A DNA stretch of 24,529 nt from a virus. Within the stretch, counting starts at the first letter, position 1. Every line of letters starts with the position of its first letter. A program made the position numbers and the translations under genes. The stretch is from positions 1 to 24,529 of IMG/VR virus record IMGVR_UViG_3300047476_000226. One strand, written 5' to 3'. The notes beneath the pieces are model-generated. The model was given only the letters and a program-made list of their open reading frames with translations. It searched no databases and was not told where the DNA came from. This document shows, piece by piece, positions 2,004-12,870 of the stretch.

Positions 2004-2198
2004 ATGAGATTCTGGTTAATTTGGGCTAGAGCGACAGGTCACCTGATGGGTCGTACTGATGATGATAAACCAGATGTGCCAGTATTGACTCTACAAGAAG
2101 CAAAAGTTGCACTCTTGTTAAAAACTTTTTGGGTTGTGATACACGTAGTTACGTGTTTCTTTATTATTGCTAACTTTTTCTTCACACATATATTATGA
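2004..2198 (+). CDS. Small single-TM membrane protein
   Basis: 64 residues from ATG 2004, or 50 from ATG 2046. The core PDVPVLTLQEAK followed by a hydrophobic helix (LLLKTFWVVIHVVTCFFIIANFFF) resembles a small membrane protein I recall from marine T4-like phages; its function is unknown. The start is ambiguous. The longer form adds an aromatic/basic MRFWLIWARATGHL segment, but the promoter at 1972 would start RNA just downstream of ATG 2004. ATG 2046 has an AGGT-like sequence upstream. The stop overlaps the UvdE start (ATGA). Confidence 0.55.
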   Translation: MRFWLIWARATGHLMGRTDDDKPDVPVLTLQEAKVALLLKTFWVVIHVVTCFFIIANFFFTHIL

Positions 2199-3214
2199 CA
2201 AACGGTAAAATTGGTTTTGCTTGCAAGTGGATTGATACAGTCGAACAAGTCGAAGGTATCAAACCTAAAGATGATGCTAAGAAATACAGCACAGGTACAA
2301 CTACTGTTGCCTGGCTTGGTCGACAATCAAAATCAGTTGCTGAAGAAAAGCTCTGGGATATTAGCAAACAGAACCTTCAAAATACTCTTAACCTAGTTAA
2401 CAAAGTTGCCACGCTACCTGAAGGTTTGCGTATGGTTCGTATTAGCAGCGAGATTCTGCCTGTATACAGCCACGCAGCTTGGAAATACTTTTATCAGCGA
2501 CAAGATGTGATTGACGTTCTTCAACGTGGCTTTGCTAAGATTGGCGATGCTGCTCGTGCCGCTGGCGTTCGTCTGAGTTTCCATCCTGGTCAGTTCTGCG
2601 TTCTTGCTTCAGAAAACCCAGGCATTGTAAACAACTCTATTGACGAGTTTGAATATCACGCTGATATGGCTCGTATGATGGGCTATGGTCGTACATTCCA
2701 AGACTTTAAAATCAACGTACATATCTCAGGTAAACTAGGTCCTGATGGTATTCGCGCAGCTTACAAGCGTCTTTCTACAGTTGCACAAAACTGTATCACT
2801 ATCGAGAACGAAGAAAATGCATGGGGTCTTGATGACTCTTTAAAACTTGCTGATCTACTGCCTATTGTTCTTGACGTACATCACCACTGGTGTCGTGAAG
2901 GTGAGTGGCTTGATCACAACGACGATCGTGTCAAACGTGTTATTGATTCTTGGCGTGGTGTTCGTCCAACTATGCACTACTCGCAATCACGCGAAGACTA
3001 TCTTGTTGATCACGATGTTGACGTAAAACCAAATTACACTGCTCTTTTAGAAAATGGTTTTAAGAAAGCCAAGCTGCGCGCTCACTCTGACTTCTATTGG
3101 AATCATGCATGTAACGAATGGGTTCTTGATTACTTAAAGACTCATGATATCATGTGCGAAAGCAAAGCAAAAAACTTGGCAAGTTTTAATCTTTATAACC
3201 TTGCTAATCACTAA
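2195..3214 (+). CDS. uvdE: UV damage endonuclease (UvdE/UvsE family)
   Basis: 339-residue UV DNA-damage endonuclease. The family nicks DNA immediately 5' of cyclobutane dimers, 6-4 photoproducts and other distortions, starting alternative excision repair. Family hallmarks are an N-terminal IGFACKW strand, LRMVRISSEILPVYSH, SFHPGQFCVLASENP with metal-binding His, the ENEENAWG acidic metal site, VLDVHHHWC (His/Asp ligands), and MHYSQSR near the C-terminal third. It is a TIM-barrel, triple-metal enzyme of about the usual length. Its ATG overlaps the preceding stop. The codons are less AT-biased than those of the 1227 gene. Repair of phage or host DNA in sunlit water is the likely role. Confidence 0.93.
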   Translation: MTNGKIGFACKWIDTVEQVEGIKPKDDAKKYSTGTTTVAWLGRQSKSVAEEKLWDISKQNLQNTLNLVNKVATLPEGLRMVRISSEILPVYSHAAWKYFYQRQDVIDVLQRGFAKIGDAARAAGVRLSFHPGQFCVLASENPGIVNNSIDEFEYHADMARMMGYGRTFQDFKINVHISGKLGPDGIRAAYKRLSTVAQNCITIENEENAWGLDDSLKLADLLPIVLDVHHHWCREGEWLDHNDDRVKRVIDSWRGVRPTMHYSQSREDYLVDHDVDVKPNYTALLENGFKKAKLRAHSDFYWNHACNEWVLDYLKTHDIMCESKAKNLASFNLYNLANH

Positions 3215-4940: not shown

Positions 4941-6395
4941 ATGATTTTTGAAATTCATGCGCAGAGAGAAAACGACCCTACTGATAAGAAGGTTTTTTAT
5001 TATGACAATATGAAAAACATTCTTAAAGACGATCAGGGTAAGGTGATTGAGTATTCTGATATTCAACAAAACCCAAACAAGAAAGAGTTCATTAACTTCA
5101 ACAAGGATATTCCTTTAAAGAAGTCAAGAGCAATCAATCATCTGAAAATTCAGCTTGGTCTTTCTTGCAACTACTCTTGCGATTATTGCTCACAACGTTT
5201 TGTCGAACGCGCACCTGAAACGTCAAAGAAAGACATTGATGCTTTTATGACTAAGCTAGATGTTTTAGACTTTAATGAAGCAGATGGTCTTCATGTAGAG
5301 TTTTGGGGTGGTGAACCATTGGTGTATTGGAAAACTCTGCGTCCTCTGGCAGAAGCCATTCGTGAAAGATTTAAAACCTGGGAAAAGAAGCCATTCTTTT
5401 CAATCATTACAAATGGTTCTATTTTAACTGATGAAATGATTGATTGGTTAATGATGATGAACTTTCAGGTAAGCATCTCTCATGATGGTCCTGGTCAATC
5501 TGTTCGTGGTCCAGACCCATTTGACGATCCTGAAGTAAAGAAACGTATTCTTGGTTTCTATCGTATGATGACACGTTTGAAGAAACCTTTTAGTTTCAAT
5601 GCTATGTTGAATAAAAAGAACACATCTCGTAAAGCAATCTATGATTGGTTTGTAAACCTTACTGGAGACCCAGATGTTATGCTTGGTGAAGGTTCTATCG
5701 TTGATGCATACGAAGAAGACGGTATTGGTAATTCACTAACTACTAAACAAGAACACTTTGAGTTTCGTCGACAAGCCTTTGGTGAAATCTATTCAACTGA
5801 TGGCCAGATTGGTTTTAAAGGTATCATCTTTAAAATGGGTGACTTTGCACAAAGAGTTCTTTCTCACGAAGAATCAATCTATCTTGGACAGAAATGCGGC
5901 ATGGATGATGAGCGTACTATTGCGGTAGACTTGCGTGGTAATGTTATCACTTGCCAGAACGTTTCTGCTGCTGAAGTTTCCAAGAATGGTGAATCTCATC
6001 TTGGTGGTAACCTTGACAACTATGACGATGTTCAGTTTACTTCTTCTACTCACTGGTCTAACCGCAAAGAGTGCCCCGAGTGTCCTGTTCTACATCTATG
6101 TAAGGGTGCTTGTATGTTCTTAGACGAAAAGTTTTGGGATATTAGCTGCGCAAATTCCTATTCAGATAACGTTGCTTTGTTTGCTCTGACATTTGTTAAA
6201 TTGACTAATGGATATATTCCTTCTTTAATCAAGAGCGATACTCTTGCTCTAGATCGCCAGGATATCTGGGGAACTATCTATGAACATAAAGAACAACCTA
6301 CGAAAAAGGTAATTCCAATCAAGATCGTTGCTGAAAAAGTCGGTCAGATTGACGATGTTGTAGTTTATGGTAAATCTAGAATCGAGTCAGTATAA
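4941..6395 (+). CDS. Radical SAM/SPASM domain maturase
   Basis: 484-residue radical S-adenosylmethionine enzyme. The [4Fe-4S]-SAM motif CNYSCDYC is at residues 76-83 (Cys 76, 80, 83). The GGEP SAM-binding motif is at 123-126. The C-terminal third has a classic SPASM arrangement: C319, then G333-x4-C338, then C378-x2-C381-x5-C387-x3-C391, then C403, enough for two auxiliary clusters. SPASM proteins typically modify ribosomally made peptides or proteins (thioether, C-C or epimerised residues) or act as enzyme maturases. A late promoter lies at 4907, and a Cys/Asn-repeat protein follows 25 bases downstream under its own late promoter. That neighbour is the obvious candidate substrate. The enzyme class is certain; substrate and reaction are inferred. 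Confidence 0.92.
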   Translation: MIFEIHAQRENDPTDKKVFYYDNMKNILKDDQGKVIEYSDIQQNPNKKEFINFNKDIPLKKSRAINHLKIQLGLSCNYSCDYCSQRFVERAPETSKKDIDAFMTKLDVLDFNEADGLHVEFWGGEPLVYWKTLRPLAEAIRERFKTWEKKPFFSIITNGSILTDEMIDWLMMMNFQVSISHDGPGQSVRGPDPFDDPEVKKRILGFYRMMTRLKKPFSFNAMLNKKNTSRKAIYDWFVNLTGDPDVMLGEGSIVDAYEEDGIGNSLTTKQEHFEFRRQAFGEIYSTDGQIGFKGIIFKMGDFAQRVLSHEESIYLGQKCGMDDERTIAVDLRGNVITCQNVSAAEVSKNGESHLGGNLDNYDDVQFTSSTHWSNRKECPECPVLHLCKGACMFLDEKFWDISCANSYSDNVALFALTFVKLTNGYIPSLIKSDTLALDRQDIWGTIYEHKEQPTKKVIPIKIVAEKVGQIDDVVVYGKSRIESV

Positions 6396-6419: not shown

Positions 6420-7301
6420 ATGACTCTACCACAATCTCCGAACTCTATTGCAGTATCTCAAGTTAACTCAGAACTTGAGATATCGTCTACCACTCAGTCA
6501 GACTTAAACTGGCTAAACGGATATATCAAATCCAATATCAGACCAGCCTCGCCAAATATGCAATCTTTCTACGGATTGGCATATTTTAACAGAACTGTTG
6601 ATGGTAACTGTAATAATGCAAATGCTGGAAACTGTAATTGCAATTGTGGTAATATTCAATGTACAGCTAATGCTAACTGCGAAAATATTAACTGTGTAAA
6701 CTGCGAAAGCACTAGAACTCTACAGGCTAACTGTAACTGCGCCTGCACTTATAACTGTAATTCTAACCAGAACTGCTTCTCATACAACTGTAACTGTTCT
6801 AAGATTATCTGTACTAAACTATTTGAATTAGGAATGTTAGATAGAGATGTTTATCTAGCCGATCAAGAGTTTGGCCAGTGGCTTGTAGAGAATCACCCTG
6901 ATGTATATCATGGTTATATTGCTTGGGCGCAGATTGTTGTTGATTGGATTGAAGAGCGTGGTCCATATATTAACTTCTGGGTTAAAGATAAAACCGAACA
7001 AAAGAAGAAACTTTCAGCTTGGGCTACTCGTTGGGCAAAAGAGATTGCTACACCTTGGGCTGAGTGGATGGCTCATAAAATGGGTATCAAACCAAAGACA
7101 AATTATACTGGGTTTGTATTAATGTCTATTGGTGCACCAATTAGTAAGGTAGTTGGCTTTGTACAAAGAAAACTAGGCAAGACAAATAAGCCAGCTGGAA
7201 TTATTACTGGCTTAGCACTAGTTGGTATTTTTGCTTTACTGCTTGGTGTTGTTAAAGTTGGTAAGTTATTCGAACAAAAAGGATTAGAATATGTCAGATA
7301 A
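6420..7301 (+). CDS. Asn/Cys-repeat protein, candidate modified virion protein
   Basis: 293 residues in three parts. Residues 1-60 (LPQSPNSIAVSQVNSELEIS...) resemble the N-terminal module of many marine phage structural proteins (pattern LPSSG-ISLSQVN-ELG). Residues 61-131 contain 16 Cys and about 21 Asn; 13 of the 16 Cys follow an Asn, including NCNCNC, NCNC and a second NCNC. Residues 132-293 are a Trp-rich, mostly helical domain ending with a likely transmembrane helix (about 258-280, GLALVGIFALLLGVV). The gene sits behind its own late promoter and directly after a radical SAM/SPASM enzyme, so it is a candidate substrate for thioether or other backbone modification. Alternatives are a metallothionein-like metal binder or a disulfide-bonded tail or lysis protein. 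Its function is not known. Confidence 0.75.
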   Translation: MTLPQSPNSIAVSQVNSELEISSTTQSDLNWLNGYIKSNIRPASPNMQSFYGLAYFNRTVDGNCNNANAGNCNCNCGNIQCTANANCENINCVNCESTRTLQANCNCACTYNCNSNQNCFSYNCNCSKIICTKLFELGMLDRDVYLADQEFGQWLVENHPDVYHGYIAWAQIVVDWIEERGPYINFWVKDKTEQKKKLSAWATRWAKEIATPWAEWMAHKMGIKPKTNYTGFVLMSIGAPISKVVGFVQRKLGKTNKPAGIITGLALVGIFALLLGVVKVGKLFEQKGLEYVR

Positions 7302-7785: not shown

Positions 7786-8502
7786 ATGAATAATACAAGC
7801 AATCAAGAAGACAGACAAAGATATCACTGGTATCAGAACGCACAAAACTTATTTTGGAAAAGTCCAATTTGGGAAGTTGATCTGGGTTATGACTCAGAAT
7901 GGAACGCAGCTTTACTAGAAGAAATCTATGACATTGGTCGTAATATTACTCTTGGTATTGACAAATCTCCAAGTAATAGTATTTGGGACTATGCCTACAA
8001 GTATCCGCATCTTCAAGAAATTAAAGACAAGATTATTGAAGTTGTAACTACGACTATTACAAAAGAAATCCCTGAAATTAGAATGTTAAACATCAAAGGG
8101 TGTGAACATTTTATGGGTTGGATTAATGTTCGCGAGCCAGGAGAATCTCTAGAGGTTCATGGTCATACTGAGTCAGCTATTGCTGCAACATATTATGTCA
8201 AAGCGCAAGATGGTTGCGGCGATCTAGTTTGTTTTGATACAGGTGGCGCGATTGATTTTGAAAATAACAGATTAACAGGTTCACCGTATATTCGAGAACG
8301 CCGATATAAACCAGTTGAAGGACGTTTGATTTTCTTTCCTAATTATGTTCTTCATGGCGTCGATGTAAACAAATCTAATGACTTAAGAATATCATTGACT
8401 ACTGATATTCGTAAAGTTGTTGACCCAAATGCCTCTAATACAGTTATTCTTAAAACTTGGGCAGGAAGAATGTCTAAGATTAAAGATTGGAAACCTGAAT
8501 AA
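7786..8502 (+). CDS. 2OG-Fe(II) oxygenase-like protein
   Basis: 238 residues resembling the putative 2OG-Fe(II) oxygenase family seen in many T4-like marine phages. The core includes GWINVREPGESLEVHGHTES (about 111-130, candidate iron ligand H125 or H127), AATYYVKA, and a distal LIFFPNYVLHGVDVN...RISL segment with H190 as second iron His and R201 as likely 2-oxoglutarate-binding Arg. These enzymes hydroxylate proteins or small molecules using O2, 2-oxoglutarate and Fe(II). It is the first gene of a four-gene overlapping set, and its stop overlaps the next start (TAATG). The substrate is unknown. Proximity to the radical SAM/Asn-Cys module makes protein hydroxylation an attractive inference. 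Confidence 0.75.
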   Translation: MNNTSNQEDRQRYHWYQNAQNLFWKSPIWEVDLGYDSEWNAALLEEIYDIGRNITLGIDKSPSNSIWDYAYKYPHLQEIKDKIIEVVTTTITKEIPEIRMLNIKGCEHFMGWINVREPGESLEVHGHTESAIAATYYVKAQDGCGDLVCFDTGGAIDFENNRLTGSPYIRERRYKPVEGRLIFFPNYVLHGVDVNKSNDLRISLTTDIRKVVDPNASNTVILKTWAGRMSKIKDWKPE

Positions 8503-9038
8503 TGTTTTGTAAGGTTAACTATAACTTTGATAAACCGCTGTATGTAGTTACAGAAGGTCTTAAACGTTTTACTGGTGAAAATGGTTATGGTATTGATTAT
8601 AAAAAGATATGGAGTCCAGATGAATCTAAACTCTTATCAATCATACCAGAAAGATATTGGCAAGACTTTCATTTAACAGTAATGTCAATTAACAGAGATA
8701 TTCCACCACACACTGATACAGGAATTGTAACAACAATTAATTTTTATTTGGATGTTGGTGGTGAAGATATTGATACTGTATTTTATGAAACCATTGTAGA
8801 TAAACCAAAAACCTTTCAAATAGAAAATCAAATAGATGGATTTATATTTGATAAGACTCAGATACGCGAAACTGCTAGGTTTCGCGCAAAGGCTATGGAG
8901 TGTTGGGTTCTAGATGTAAAGAATATACACAGCGTTGAAGGTAATTTAACCAGAGATCGAAAAGCAATAACTCTTGGAACTTGTTTACACAAATATAATG
9001 ATGTTATTGATATGTTTAAGGAAACAAGATGTTTGTAA
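8502..9038 (+). CDS. 2OG-Fe(II) oxygenase-like protein, paralogue A
   Basis: 178 residues with a double-stranded beta-helix signature. The proximal HxD is in IPPHTDTGIVTTINFYL (H70, D72). The distal His and Arg are in WVLDVKNIHSVEGNLTRDRKAITLGT (H143; R151 or R153). The protein is clearly paralogous to the next gene, sharing KPL-x(3)-EGL, KKxWSPD, IPxRYW and TTINFY blocks at the same positions. It is shorter than typical oxygenases, with only the catalytic core. It overlaps its neighbours by 1 and 10 bases, indicating translational coupling. Oxygenase chemistry is inferred from the retained H-D-H-R set; the substrate is unknown. Confidence 0.68.
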   Translation: MFCKVNYNFDKPLYVVTEGLKRFTGENGYGIDYKKIWSPDESKLLSIIPERYWQDFHLTVMSINRDIPPHTDTGIVTTINFYLDVGGEDIDTVFYETIVDKPKTFQIENQIDGFIFDKTQIRETARFRAKAMECWVLDVKNIHSVEGNLTRDRKAITLGTCLHKYNDVIDMFKETRCL

Positions 9039-9559
9039 AACTTAAAAACAATTTTACCAAACCTTTATTTACAACTGTTGAAGGGCTTACCTCTTTTGCA
9101 GGTATTGATGGTAAAGGAGTTGGACATAAAAAAGTTTGGTCTCCAGATTCTGAAGATTTTTATTCAGTGATACCAAAAAGATACTGGGCTGACTTTGATT
9201 TTAGTTTAATGACAATCAATTCTAGAATTTACCCGCATGTTGATAGAGATTATATTACTACAATTAATTTCTATATTCAAACTGGTGGAGATTATATAAC
9301 TTCGTTTTATTCAGATGGAGATCTTGCAGATATAAGTGACTCTGTAGATTATTGTAATGGTGTTTATAAAGAATCTAGCTTAACAGAGGTTGGTTTTTTT
9401 GTAGCTAAAGACTATGAAGCATGGCTACTTGATGTATCTAAAATACATACAGTTCATAATACATTTGGAACTGAAAGAAAAGCCTTGACTTTAAGAACTA
9501 AGCGTTACACATATATAGAAGTGTATGATATGTTAAAGGAAACTGATAATGTGGTATGA
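9029..9559 (+). CDS. 2OG-Fe(II) oxygenase-like protein, paralogue B
   Basis: 176 residues, a tandem paralogue of the preceding gene. The proximal motif is IYPHVDRDYITTINFYI (H70, D72). The distal part is WLLDVSKIHTVHNTFGTERKALTLRT (H140, R150). The spacing between motifs is almost the same as in paralogue A, while loop sequences differ widely. This suggests an old duplication with substrate divergence. It starts inside the upstream gene (overlap 10 bases) and ends 11 bases inside the next one. The putative catalytic residues are all present, so both copies are probably active. Confidence 0.68.
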   Translation: MFVKLKNNFTKPLFTTVEGLTSFAGIDGKGVGHKKVWSPDSEDFYSVIPKRYWADFDFSLMTINSRIYPHVDRDYITTINFYIQTGGDYITSFYSDGDLADISDSVDYCNGVYKESSLTEVGFFVAKDYEAWLLDVSKIHTVHNTFGTERKALTLRTKRYTYIEVYDMLKETDNVV

Positions 9560-10337
9560 GAGACTAGATGTTCAATTTGATATTGAAAAATTACGCAGCG
9601 CTGTACGTGAACACGTATTCACTCTTGGTGATCAAGTAATTCAGGGTGAAGAATATGAAACACCACAATACAATGGCTTTGGTGGTTGGTCTTTATTAAG
9701 TCGTAGTGCTGACTGGAGAGATGGCTGGGAAGCAATTCAAATGGAAGGTGGAACCTCATTAGAACAAATGCTACCAACGCCAGAGTTAATATATAAAGCC
9801 CATAAGCATTTTGGTATTGCGCATAGTCTAGAACATGATAAACCAACACAAGCATACGTTGGATATATCAAAGAAGTTCTTGACACTCTAAAGGATATGG
9901 GTTTAACACCTCGCCGTGCAAGAATCACTTGTTTAAAAGCAGGTTCTAAATCTCTTGTACATAAAGATGCTGATACAACTGAGTATATGGCACGTTTACA
10001 TATCCCTCTTTGGACTAATGAAAAATGTGTTCATATCTGCGAGGGTGATAGCTTGCATATGAAAGCCAATGGTAGTGCATATATTATATGGACTAACCTT
10101 TGGCACCAGATTCGTAATGACTCAGATGAAGATCGTTATCATTTGATTATGGATGTTTATGATACTAAAAAGATTACTGACAATTTTAAATATGAAGGTA
10201 ACTTTGAAGAGTTGGAAAACTTTGTTCGTGGTTCAAGAGAGCAGATTGAAGCAGTTGATCTAACTGAAGATGACAAACAATTCTTTGATGCACTTAAACA
10301 ACGGTATGTTACAAAAACCTTGACTTACAATAAATAA
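9549..10337 (+). CDS. Aspartyl/asparaginyl hydroxylase-like oxygenase
   Basis: 262 residues resembling the aspartyl/asparaginyl beta-hydroxylase-type 2OG-Fe(II) family. The block around residues 124-204 has ARITCLKAGSKSLVHKDAD (iron ligands H138 and D140), YMARLHIPLWTN (R149), a small turn with GSAYIIWTNLWHQIRN (distal H186) and EDRYHLIMDVYD (R196, 2-oxoglutarate or backbone contact). An N-terminal extension of about 120 residues may provide substrate specificity. It is the last gene of the oxygenase set. The -35 of the tmRNA promoter lies within its final codons. An asparagine hydroxylase-like enzyme near an Asn-rich late protein is suggestive but unproven. Confidence 0.75.
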   Translation: MWYERLDVQFDIEKLRSAVREHVFTLGDQVIQGEEYETPQYNGFGGWSLLSRSADWRDGWEAIQMEGGTSLEQMLPTPELIYKAHKHFGIAHSLEHDKPTQAYVGYIKEVLDTLKDMGLTPRRARITCLKAGSKSLVHKDADTTEYMARLHIPLWTNEKCVHICEGDSLHMKANGSAYIIWTNLWHQIRNDSDEDRYHLIMDVYDTKKITDNFKYEGNFEELENFVRGSREQIEAVDLTEDDKQFFDALKQRYVTKTLTYNK

Positions 10338-10348
10338 TCAGGTATAAT
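10320..10348 (+). promoter_or_regulatory. Sigma70-type promoter of the tmRNA gene
   Basis: TTGACT (10320-10325) and TATAAT (10343-10348) with a 17-base spacer. The predicted start is about 10354-10356, just before the acceptor piece of the permuted tmRNA. This explains independent, probably early and strong, transcription by host polymerase. Confidence 0.8.
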
Positions 10349-10419
10349 ATAGTTTATTGCTGTATGAAGCGGATAGAAAAGTGTTCTGGACGGGAGTTCG
10401 ATTCTCCCCACCTCCACCA

Positions 10420-10491
10420 AAAGCATACAGGTTAGATGGCCATCTAATAAACGGCAAAGACCGAACAGAAATGTTCCTGTATGCTTTTGAT
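10420..10491 (+). other. Intervening segment of permuted tmRNA, highly structured
   Basis: The 72 bases between the encoded CCA and the 5' G of the coding piece. A 12-bp helix pairs AAAGCATACAGG (10420-10431) with CCTGTATGCTTT (10476-10487), extending the tmRNA acceptor stem. Inside it three hairpins abut with few unpaired bases: TTAGAT-GGCC-ATCTAA (10432-10447), CGG-CAAAGA-CCG (10452-10463), and AACA-GAAA-TGTT (10464-10475, GNRA-type loop). It is presumably excised by host tRNA-processing enzymes (RNase P at 10491/10492 and a 3' nuclease after the CCA). Confidence 0.8.
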
Positions 10492-10598
10492 GGGGGTGAC
10501 TAGGTTTCGACAGGGCAACAAGTAAACAAGTGGACAGCACGGGAATGCTAAACCCGTAGGATTGGGGTAACTCGGTCGAAGAAGCAAAAGAAGTAAAT

Positions 10599-10631
10599 GC
10601 AAACGACTCTGTCTTCGCATTAGCAGCCTAA
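10599..10631 (+). CDS. tmRNA proteolysis-tag reading frame (ANDSVFALAA)
   Basis: The resume codon is GCA at 10599. The frame reads Ala-Asn-Asp-Ser-Val-Phe-Ala-Leu-Ala-Ala and ends at TAA (10629-10631). With the alanine charged on the tmRNA, the full tag would be A-ANDSVFALAA. It matches the common AND...ALAA pattern. The C-terminal LAA is the ClpX recognition element known from E. coli. It is not an independently initiated gene: there is no start codon and translation enters by trans-translation. Confidence 0.88.
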   Translation, partial: ANDSVFALAA

Positions 10632-10648
10632 ACGCTGCTTAGGGTTTC

Positions 10649-10685
10649 GGTGGTTTTCCTCGTAACAGAATAAGCCACCATTTTT
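10649..10685 (+). terminator. Candidate tmRNA terminator
   Basis: GGTGGTTT pairs with AAGCCACC (one G-U) around a 15-base loop, and ATTTTT follows. It could be the rho-independent terminator and 3' boundary of the coding piece, or it could be retained as a terminal stem of the RNA. Confidence 0.55.
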
Positions 10686-10695
10686 AAGGATCTAT

Positions 10696-11202
10696 ATGAT
10701 TGGTGTTATTCTTGGAAATGGTCCAAGTAAAAGTGCATACGATAGAACTGGTGACTTTGTTCTGGGGTGTAATATTCCAGGAGATCAGTTCAGTGTTGAT
10801 GCAACTGTTATATGTGATGAAGAGATAGTCTGGGTTCTTAAAAATGACTTGACTTTAGTACAAGTGCCAGTTATAATATCTACTAAGGTCTATGAAAAGA
10901 TGAAAGAGTTGGGTATTGTAAACAACTTTATTATTCATCATGTTTTCAAACCCAAAGATTGGCATAATGCGGCTCACTATGCAGCAGACTTTTTGATTGA
11001 AAATCGTTGTGATGAAATTCATCTTTGGGGATGTGATTCTATTTTTGAAAACACTGTTGTATCTTCAACTGCAGAATACACAAACCAGAATACAGTTGGT
11101 GATGACCGATTTGTAAAAAACTGGCGTCGAGTTTGGCACGACAAAATGAAAATTGGTAATGAAGATGATGTGCATTTTGTAGTTTACAGGATGACTAAAT
11201 AA
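10696..11202 (+). CDS. GNGPS-motif protein (MptE/DUF115-like fold candidate)
   Basis: 168 residues beginning MIGVILGNGPSKSAYD. The VxGNGPS loop after the first strand is typical of nucleotide- or nucleotide-sugar-binding Rossmann-like proteins, including MptE/DUF115 and some sialyltransferase-like families. A central AHYAADFLIENRCDEIHLWGCDSIFE segment carries a C-terminal strand and WGCD turn. The catalytic role is not assignable. AAGGA precedes the ATG. It is the first gene after the tmRNA. An internal TTGACT-17-TATAAT sequence lies in codons 52-61. Confidence 0.55.
   Translation: MIGVILGNGPSKSAYDRTGDFVLGCNIPGDQFSVDATVICDEEIVWVLKNDLTLVQVPVIISTKVYEKMKELGIVNNFIIHHVFKPKDWHNAAHYAADFLIENRCDEIHLWGCDSIFENTVVSSTAEYTNQNTVGDDRFVKNWRRVWHDKMKIGNEDDVHFVVYRMTK
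10849..10877 (+). promoter_or_regulatory. Sigma70-type promoter inside a coding region
   Basis: TTGACT (10849-10854), a 17-base spacer and TATAAT (10872-10877), in sense orientation inside the 10696 gene. It matches the other promoters exactly in both hexamers and spacing. It could produce a long leader for the 11260-12870 genes. Confidence 0.5.
11195..11201 (+). promoter_or_regulatory. Candidate late-type promoter CTAAATA
   Basis: CTAAATA overlaps the stop codon of the 10696 gene. The expected start, 5-7 bases downstream, coincides with the beginning of the pseudoknot at 11207. The evidence is motif and position only. Confidence 0.35.
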
Positions 11203-11206
11203 AATA

Positions 11207-11240
11207 CCAGCTTGACGGTTGCTGGACACACTTGAACCGT
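11207..11240 (+). promoter_or_regulatory. Candidate H-type pseudoknot in mRNA leader
   Basis: Stem 1 is CCAGC (11207-11211) with GCTGG (11221-11225). Stem 2 is ACGGTT (11215-11220) with AACCGT (11235-11240). The order stem1-stem2-stem1'-stem2' with loops of 3, 0 and 9 bases is classic H-type geometry. It ends 10 bases before the Shine-Dalgarno sequence of the 11260 gene. Alternatively stem 2 alone, followed by TTTT, is a weak terminator. I do not recognise a named riboswitch. Confidence 0.5.
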
Positions 11241-11259
11241 TTTACACACAGGAGACACT

Positions 11260-11538
11260 ATGTCAAATATGACACCGTTCGAGATTCGCCTTGAACTATT
11301 AAAAATGGCGAAAGACATGTTAGAGCAAGATTATTATGCTCAACGTGAAAAGGTTAGCAATGAATACGCAGCAAAATGCGACGTTGCTAAAATTCATGGG
11401 CAACCTATTCCTGATCATCCAGGATTCACTGCGTTCCCTAGCGAAACTGAGGTTATCAAAAAGGCAACCGAACTAAACAGTTTCGTTTCACAAATCCCAC
11501 AAGCTACACTAGAAAAGACAAGCAAAAAGTCCACCTGA
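11260..11538 (+). CDS. Conserved small phage protein, 92 aa
   Basis: 92-residue, largely helical protein beginning MSNMTPFEIRLELLKMAKDMLEQDYY. It resembles a small protein I recall from many marine T4-like phages (TPFEIRLELLKMAKDML block, then a proline-rich middle and a final KKATELNSFVSQ helix). It has no Cys and no known catalytic motif; its function is unknown. A strong Shine-Dalgarno sequence (AGGAG, 11250-11254) precedes the ATG. The leader contains a pseudoknot-like structure. Confidence 0.7.
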   Translation: MSNMTPFEIRLELLKMAKDMLEQDYYAQREKVSNEYAAKCDVAKIHGQPIPDHPGFTAFPSETEVIKKATELNSFVSQIPQATLEKTSKKST

Positions 11539-11550
11539 TATGGGATCGGG

Positions 11551-11570
11551 GTGTGTACAGGCACACTCTT
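11551..11570 (+). terminator. Weak hairpin, possible attenuator
   Basis: GTGTG-TACAGG-CACAC is followed by TCTTT, between the 11260 gene and the hydrolase gene. The 5-bp stem is modest, so termination would be partial at best. Confidence 0.25.
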
Positions 11571-11591
11571 TAACTAATTAAGGAGATAATT

Positions 11592-12104
11592 ATGCGTAAA
11601 GCAAAATTATTACTGATAGGTTCTTTGTTCGCGTTATGTGCAATTTTTACTATTGGACATACAGAAGAATCTAAAACACTAGAGATTACTGTAAGTGATC
11701 TAACGCAAGATGCAAGAAAACAAGTAGAGTGTCTGGCAGAAAACATCTACCATGAAGCAGGTCATGAGCCTTACATGGGTAAAAAGGCTGTTGCTCTAGT
11801 TACACTAAACCGAACACAAGATCAAAGATTTCCTTCTAACATTTGTGGAGTTGTAAAACAAAAAACACAAGGCACTTGTCAGTTCAGCTGGTTCTGTATG
11901 CCAGTTAAGTTAAATAGAAATACAGAAGCATATAAGGAATCTATGAGGATTGCTCTATTCGTATATGCTAATTATGAGAAGTTAAAAGATGTCACCCATG
12001 GTGCTCTTTACTATCATGCAGATTATGTTAACCCTCGTTGGCGTGGTCTGGAAAAGACAACCGTTATTGGTCGTCACATTTTTTATAAAGAGAGAAAATT
12101 ATGA
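11592..12104 (+). CDS. Cell-wall hydrolase, SleB-type, secreted or membrane-anchored
   Basis: 170 residues. An N-terminal signal or signal-anchor segment (KAKLLLIGSLFALCAIFTIG, residues 3-22) targets it to the periplasm. The catalytic domain matches the SleB/Hydrolase_2 family: ECLAENIYHEAGHEP (47-60, with candidate catalytic Glu 55), AVALVTLNR, RFPSNICGVVKQ, and CQFSWFC (96-102). Family members cleave peptidoglycan glycan strands (lytic transglycosylase/amidase-type). It is a good endolysin candidate for this phage, possibly of the signal-arrest-release type. AAGGAG lies upstream. It overlaps the ClpP-like gene (ATGATG junction) by 4 bases. Confidence 0.82.
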   Translation: MRKAKLLLIGSLFALCAIFTIGHTEESKTLEITVSDLTQDARKQVECLAENIYHEAGHEPYMGKKAVALVTLNRTQDQRFPSNICGVVKQKTQGTCQFSWFCMPVKLNRNTEAYKESMRIALFVYANYEKLKDVTHGALYYHADYVNPRWRGLEKTTVIGRHIFYKERKL

Positions 12105-12661
12105 TGAATAAACTAAATTTGCAATTGACTGATGGTGGAGATTCGAAACACTCGTTTCTTCTGATGATGGAAGATATTAGTTTATCTTCAGTTAAAACTG
12201 CAACTGAGTGGATTCTGGAAGCAAACTTCACAGAAGAACGACCAGAGATGCTTAACATGCTTATCACCTCGCCAGGTGGAGATCTTAATGCTGCTTTTGC
12301 ATTGATTGATATTATGCGTGGCTCTGCTATTCCTATTCGTACTATCGGTTTGGGTCAGATTGCCTCTGCTGGTCTTATGATTTTCATCGCTGGTGAAAAA
12401 GGTCAACGTATCTTGACTCCAAATACTTCTATCCTCTCTCATCAGTATTCTTGGGGTGCTATTGGTAAAGAACACGAGTTGTTTGCTACTGTTCGTGAGT
12501 TTGACCTTACCACTAAGAAAATGATTCAGCATTATAAAAAGTGTACTGGGCTAGATGAAAAGAAAATTCGCGAAACTTTGCTGCCACCTCAAGACGTTTG
12601 GTTGAGTCCAGTTGAAGCTAAAAAATTAGGTTTGTGCGATGAAGTAAAGGAGTTGTCATGA
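12101..12661 (+). CDS. clpP: ClpP-like serine protease
   Basis: 186-residue ClpP/crotonase-fold serine protease. Landmarks are ITSPGGDLNAAFALID (oxyanion SPGG, 57-60), nucleophile S89 in GQIASAGLMIF, catalytic H114 in TSILSHQYSWG, and D165 in QDVWLSPVEAKKLGLCDEV, matching the Ser-His-Asp order and spacing of ClpP. It degrades proteins when docked to a ClpX/ClpA-type unfoldase, and no unfoldase is seen in this window. T4-like phages use gp21 as prohead protease, so a maturation role is less likely than general or tag-directed proteolysis. The co-resident tmRNA with an LAA tag supports that idea. A 4-base overlap precedes it and ATGA coupling follows. Confidence 0.88.
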   Translation: MMNKLNLQLTDGGDSKHSFLLMMEDISLSSVKTATEWILEANFTEERPEMLNMLITSPGGDLNAAFALIDIMRGSAIPIRTIGLGQIASAGLMIFIAGEKGQRILTPNTSILSHQYSWGAIGKEHELFATVREFDLTTKKMIQHYKKCTGLDEKKIRETLLPPQDVWLSPVEAKKLGLCDEVKELS

Positions 12662-12870
12662 AATCTGAAATTATTGCGCTGATTATTGCCGTAACAATCT
12701 CAATTATAACTGTTGTTGCTGGGATAGTATATTACAACATCAAACGAGATGAAGCAATGAAATCTAACATTGAGTCTGCGATTGTTAAGGGTATTGATCC
12801 AATCGCAGTCAAATGCGCTTATGGACATTCTGATAATCTTTGCGTCGTCTATGCAGCTACCAGAAAATAA
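12658..12870 (+). CDS. Small single-TM protein with C-terminal Cys pair
   Basis: 70 residues. A strong N-terminal membrane helix (EIIALIIAVTISIITVVAGIVYY, residues 3-25) is followed by a short KRDEAMKSNIESAIVKGIDPIAVKCAYGHSDNLCVVYAA domain. The motif AIVKGIDPIAVKCAY, together with a second Cys, recurs in small proteins I recall from marine T4-like phages. The two Cys (53, 62) could form a disulfide if the tail is periplasmic. It starts in the ClpP-like stop (ATGA) with GGAG upstream. Its function is unknown; position beside the hydrolase leaves a lysis-accessory role open. Confidence 0.68.
   Translation: MKSEIIALIIAVTISIITVVAGIVYYNIKRDEAMKSNIESAIVKGIDPIAVKCAYGHSDNLCVVYAATRK

Follow-up and report, generated by a model that had tools for sequence, protein, structure and literature searches.

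Does a phage that carries its own tmRNA, with a tag ending in a protease signal, also carry a peptidase that acts in the same pathway? This question is raised by a 24,529-base virus record (IMG/VR record IMGVR_UViG_3300047476_000226; hereafter "the window," i.e., the whole stretch of DNA analyzed), for which the original prediction was that a phage tmRNA and a nearby ClpP-like peptidase, together with host SmpB and ClpX/ClpA, may constitute one recycling pathway. Phage tmRNAs are documented: 53 of 133 unique phage tmRNAs were two-piece, and those of the related marine phages Melnitz and Mosig have already been published, in an article that does not contain the word ClpP (PMC9004378). Other sources tabulate 79 unique phage tmRNAs and report that one phage form, which lacks the tag, inhibits the tmRNA of the host (PMC11915505), describe huge phages with tmRNA and SmpB in a text where ClpP does not occur (PMC7162821), and class a phage ClpP both as prohead protease and as auxiliary gene (PMC5964084). 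In the open-licence literature on phage tmRNA, judged mostly from listings, no description of a tmRNA-ClpP pairing was found.

The permuted tmRNA gene

The window virus is a T4-like phage, whose gp32 was nearest to those of Melnitz (53.8%), HTVC008M (53.5%), Mosig (51.0%) and cyanophages (about 50%). ARAGORN identified one tmRNA in the record (10327-10722, plus strand), flagged it as permuted and assigned it the tag ANDSVFALAA. The gene matched the Rfam models RF04321 (tmRNA_permuted; 124.4 bits, cut-off 47) and RF01850 (beta_tmRNA; 100.7 bits, cut-off 84), beta being the nearest Rfam type. Its order is circularly permuted, from acceptor half through spacer to coding half (Table 1). The tRNA-like 3' half, with the T-arm and CACCTCCACCA at 10409-10419, lies upstream of the coding half, and the gene has an alanine-type acceptor stem, a resume codon, a tag with a protease signal and a stop codon. 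ARAGORN and the tag codons confirmed the LAA ending that had been noted. The interval originally given for the whole feature, 10599-12661, includes the tag and clpP, but the tmRNA starts about 240 bases earlier and its acceptor half falls outside.

Table 1. Features of the tmRNA-clpP region, in window coordinates
Feature	Position	Strand	Evidence
Putative sigma-70-type promoter, TTGACT-17 nt-TATAAT, directly 5' of tmRNA	10320..10348	+	11/12 positions match
tmRNA acceptor half: H2 strand, T-arm, acceptor 3' strand CACCTCC, A, CCA	10358..10419 (start of tRNA-like half approximate)	+	ARAGORN, Rfam, covariation
tmRNA spacer; ends pair, extending the acceptor stem in the precursor	10420..10491	+	Covariation
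tmRNA coding half: acceptor 5' strand GGGGGTG (10492-10498), D-loop, H2, tag, H5 hairpin	10492..10680 (3' end approximate)	+	Rfam, covariation
Tag reading frame ANDSVFALAA and stop TAA	10599..10631	+	ARAGORN, tag codons
ORF A, 168 aa, no Pfam/PHROG family; same position in part of the relatives	10696..11202	+	ORF list, Pfam, PHROG
ORF B, 92 aa, no Pfam/PHROG family	11260..11538	+	Pfam, PHROG, relatives
SleB-type cell wall hydrolase (Pfam Hydrolase_2, PHROG endolysin)	11592..12104	+	Pfam, PHROG
clpP-like gene, 186 aa, Ser89-His114-Asp165	12101..12661	+	Pfam, relatives, structure model
ORF of 70 aa after clpP, hydrophobic N-terminal stretch (by eye), no family	12658..12870	+	Pfam, PHROG

Across 43 phage tmRNAs, picked from loci that share the window's ARAGORN tag form, RNAalifold predicted 45 pairs, with compensatory changes at 30 of them. 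The G3-U70 type wobble, the alanine identity position, was kept in all 43, and CCA is present in the window. The spacer ends also pair (alignment columns 95-106 with 226-237; both-side changes in up to 21 of the 43 sequences), and a helix that runs past the CCA into the spacer is what would be expected of a precursor cut into two pieces. In the 80-nt stretch before the T-arm, a promoter site matching at least 10 of 12 positions occurred in 48 of 84 phage tmRNAs, compared to 4.3% of shuffles; in the promoter search around the window's tmRNA, the number of promoter-like sites in the region overall was not above that of shuffles. Judged from sequence, a complete and selectively maintained tmRNA is supported. 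That it is instead a captured remnant without function is very improbable: tmRNA genes are common integration sites, which would fit such a capture, as would the half-genes of two relatives (L078 and L081, below), but covariation and the retention of G3-U70, tag and promoter across many phages contradict this explanation for the clade.

The T4-like phages Melnitz (of Methylophilales) and Mosig (of Pelagibacter) likewise have a permuted tmRNA, with gp32 downstream of it and a PDDEXK nuclease gene nearby, as in the window. Their tmRNAs are, however, of the Rfam alpha type, with the tags ANDNYVPVDYALAA in Melnitz, where a glutamine riboswitch match lies alongside, and GEDNFALAA in Mosig, and neither genome contains ClpP. 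The two-piece tmRNAs of the Betaproteobacteria Accumulibacter and Thauera show the same permuted order and the tag ANDERFALAA; that of Accumulibacter (L302) matches the beta_tmRNA model, as the window's does, and the spacer is longer in the window phage than in either bacterium according to the ARAGORN spans. Among 200 genomes from the bacterial order sampled, permuted tmRNAs were uncommon (9 genomes above the cut-off), and no DNA match to the window tmRNA was found among named phages. Both the tag and the Rfam type suggest a tmRNA of the Betaproteobacteria-like kind, but this does not establish the host.

Other genes of the window include a homologue of the UV-endonuclease UvdE (2195-3214; 141 bits) and a radical SAM protein (4941-6395) followed directly by an ORF with an Asn- and Cys-rich stretch (6420-7301), possibly a modified-peptide pair. 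Four consecutive ORFs lie 5' of the tmRNA (7786-10337), the last of which matches aspartyl/asparaginyl beta-hydroxylase and the others of which appear oxygenase-like by eye.

The ClpP-like protein and its docking surface

The clpP-like ORF begins 1470 bases past the tag stop and overlaps the stop codon of the endolysin gene with its start. Its product matched Pfam CLP_protease with 100.2 bits (cut-off 20.2) and contains Ser, His and Asp in ClpP order; in distinct relatives Ser89 and His114 were each found in 77/77 and Asp165 in 76/77, with a gap in the remaining one. The peptidase with an intact triad that had been predicted about 1.5 kb downstream is thus present. The median dN/dS of clpP was 0.078 (49 of 117 pairs, with dS under 2), compared to 0.106 for gp32 (94 of 107 pairs), so that purifying selection on the ClpP-like protein is supported by the sequence comparisons. 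An AlphaFold2 model was of middling quality (mean pLDDT 74.6), and its residues 1-13 and 115-122 scored below 50. Its best VIA-align 2 match was Staphylococcus aureus ClpP (Z 15.9, rmsd 2.7, 126 residues aligned), and the Foldseek and VIA-align 2 matches listed were ClpP chains, with Foldseek TM-scores of about 0.5. By Pfam and by both structural comparisons, the fold of the modelled protein is that of ClpP.

With bacterial ClpP (peptidase family S14) the window protein has the fold, the triad and a Gly-rich stretch in common. Bacterial ClpP, however, possesses an N-terminal axial loop and a full ClpX/ClpA pocket, whereas in the window protein the axial-loop segment is absent from the sequence alignment and several pocket residues are missing. 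Relative to E. coli ClpP, the changes are Phe49Glu, Tyr60Asn, Tyr62Leu, Phe82Gly, Phe112Ile, Leu114Thr and Leu189Lys, and hydrophobicity is kept at positions 90 (Ile90Ile) and 92 (Met92Leu); these are positions that we take to form the ClpX/ClpA hydrophobic docking pocket. Given that Asn52, Gly74 and Thr106 are each kept in 76/77 relatives, the changed docking surface is a family trait. The docking residues expected under the original prediction are therefore largely missing, as positions 49, 60, 82, 114 and 189 are changed and the loop segment is absent. Much of the surface through which ClpX drives an ordinary ClpP seems to be gone from the phage protein, which is probably an active peptidase used otherwise than in standard ClpXP.

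Searches for partner genes bear on the same point. SmpB was found in 0/16 related records, so the tmRNA would have to rely on the SmpB of its host, and a Clp ATPase was found in 1/16, namely Phosso. The proposed reliance on host SmpB accordingly stands, and that on host ClpX as the driver of the phage ClpP is weakened by the docking residues and the missing loop. It is quite unlikely that the phage ClpP assembles into standard tetradecamers into which host ClpX or ClpA feeds proteins bearing the phage tag, although the intact triad, the LAA tag, the constant linkage and the lack of a phage Clp ATPase in 15/16 records would all suit such an arrangement. Against it are five of the substitutions (Phe49Glu, Tyr60Asn, Phe82Gly, Leu114Thr and Leu189Lys), the missing N-terminal loop, and the separate canonical ClpP of Phosso, which retains Phe49, Tyr62, Phe82, Ile90, Met92 and Leu114.

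Because the alignment scan with the window ClpP gave close relatives of the same clade, the ClpPs of the Synechococcus phage BUCT-ZZ01 and the Sinorhizobium phage Phosso were also used as queries. Their ClpP-like proteins are about 50% identical to the window's and altered at the same docking positions. Both genomes carry a permuted tmRNA (BUCT-ZZ01, L441 3862-4280; Phosso, L439 3597-4199) that is missing from the listed features and, unlike that of the window, lies far from clpP. A single genome, that of Phosso (L440, L439, L534 and L535), thus combines a permuted tmRNA (tag by eye ANDNVSTKVALAA), a canonical ClpP, the ClpP-like protein and two Clp ATPases.

Other phage ClpP-like proteins, such as those of ICP1 and many more, belong to S14 by sequence but are of a separate type, about 25% identical to the window's. 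In two loci (L228 6464-7126 and L247 6617-7243) this distant type lies near a tmRNA and an endolysin gene, and the window's type was not found there.

A role of the ClpP-like protein as head maturation protease was also considered and is contradicted. PHROG labels of several ClpP-like matches suggest such a role; a T4-type prohead protease (PF03420) is nevertheless encoded elsewhere in 9/20 records, including all 7 of at least 126 kb, and clpP lies beside the endolysin gene, away from capsid genes. We consider this role extremely improbable.

Linkage between the ClpP type and tmRNA

The ClpP scan found 240 relatives, of which the best 80 were kept. Among these, 50 clpP loci had at least 3.5 kb upstream, and in 47 of them a permuted tmRNA preceded clpP by 1.0-4.0 kb on the same strand, usually with ORF B and then the SleB endolysin gene in between. 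Of the three exceptions, L022 is only a possible one: no tmRNA was found in the available 4 kb upstream of clpP, but the tmRNAs of relatives lie up to 3.95 kb upstream. The other two, L078 (7114-7221) and L081 (1434-1541), have the tmRNA coding half only, with the tag ANDNYAPFEIALAA, beside the same clpP type; the acceptor half was not found within these loci, which indicates a broken or split tmRNA gene.

Loci selected by their tmRNA gave a similar picture. Where the window's tag form was present with 4.5 kb downstream, clpP lay within 5 kb in 15/23, and for other tags in 0/16. Whole records of at least 75 kb carried a permuted tmRNA in 10/10 cases when found by ClpP within the window clade and in 5/9 when the query was the ClpP of BUCT-ZZ01 or of Phosso; these two phages carried one as well. 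Taken over all records of this size with the window's ClpP type, 17/21 had a permuted tmRNA, compared to 4/15 named ClpP-less T4-like phages (Fisher P 0.002, kinship uncorrected). The tmRNA-negative records with this type were G237, G242, G243 and G244, two of which, G243 and G244, resemble Phosso but are far shorter and may therefore be fragments. Conversely, Melnitz, HTVC008M and Mosig have tmRNA but no ClpP, so tmRNA does not need ClpP. In 29 loci selected by gp32 (at least 7 kb upstream), tmRNA and either ClpP type showed no significant association (both 13, tmRNA only 6, ClpP only 4, neither 6; P 0.24), whereas the window's ClpP type alone was associated with tmRNA (11, 8, 0 and 10, respectively; P 0.003). 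It should be noted that two tmRNAs detected by Rfam, those of L229 and Phosso, escaped ARAGORN, whose counts are thus lower bounds. The co-occurrence expected originally was hence found in one direction: the window's ClpP type is mostly accompanied by tmRNA, and tmRNA often occurs without ClpP.

The linkage might stem solely from a common early or lysis region. The tmRNA and clpP would then be separate infection aids brought together by a transcription unit at the endolysin gene, with clpP as a member of the lysis group. This is possible but rather doubtful. The overlap of the clpP start with the endolysin stop is in line with it, as are loci where tmRNA, ORF B and sleB occur without detected clpP (L106, L109, L110 and others), ORF B being located between tmRNA and endolysin in most relatives as well, and the non-adjacency of tmRNA and clpP in a second clade, BUCT-ZZ01 and Phosso. 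Outside the window's clade, however, records with the ClpP type still tend to carry tmRNA (7/11 compared to 4/15), a weak contrast that is not significant (P 0.11, kinship uncorrected).

Proposed roles of the tmRNA and the ClpP-like protein

Gene anatomy, covariation, the conserved promoter, the linkage, the triad, purifying selection and the changed docking surface lead us to favor, as the probable explanation, a working two-piece tmRNA that acts through host SmpB and host Clp proteases, linked to a ClpP-like protein that, with its ClpP fold, most likely works as a serine peptidase and not as a standard ClpP docked by ClpX/ClpA. Best supported is the functional two-piece tmRNA relying on host SmpB and host Clp, and trans-translation through host SmpB is likely. 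Against this explanation, apart from the lysis-region argument, stand the weak whole-record contrast outside the window's clade, the ClpP-less tmRNA carriers Melnitz, HTVC008M and Mosig, the middling structure model, and L078 and L081, which keep the ClpP type with the tmRNA coding half alone.

We infer the processing, charging, tagging and proteolysis steps, and any joint function with ClpP, as follows. A promoter of the host sigma-70 type would direct synthesis of a single tmRNA precursor, in which pairing of the spacer ends would lengthen the acceptor stem. Host enzymes would excise the spacer, leaving two RNAs held together by base pairing, which host alanyl-tRNA synthetase would charge by way of G3-U70. 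Host SmpB would then bring the tmRNA to ribosomes stalled on broken messages; the tmRNA would release these ribosomes and append the LAA-ending tag, and the tagged product would be destroyed by host ClpXP or ClpAP. The ClpP-like protein may increase the capacity of the infected cell to cleave peptides, either by itself or within rings that also contain host ClpP.

Mixed rings could also serve the opposite end, with the phage protein joining host ClpP and lowering or redirecting ClpXP or ClpAP activity, e.g., sparing phage proteins while the tmRNA clears ribosomes. A catalytic core that is kept beneath a changed docking surface is consistent with this, as is the combination, in Phosso, of the ClpP-like type with a canonical ClpP and two Clp ATPases, but an inhibitor would not obviously need the intact triad, and we regard such a role as unlikely. 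About as unlikely is the idea that a phage-specific ClpP type without ClpX/ClpA docking is, in several lineages, a dedicated partner of the phage two-piece tmRNA and processes tagged proteins or peptides in a way that is not known from bacteria, e.g., by becoming part of host ClpP rings and altering what they are used for.

For the question of why certain phages encode a tmRNA themselves, a conserved neighboring protease provides a testable lead on the fate of the tagged proteins during infection, and its altered docking surface yields a clear biochemical prediction.
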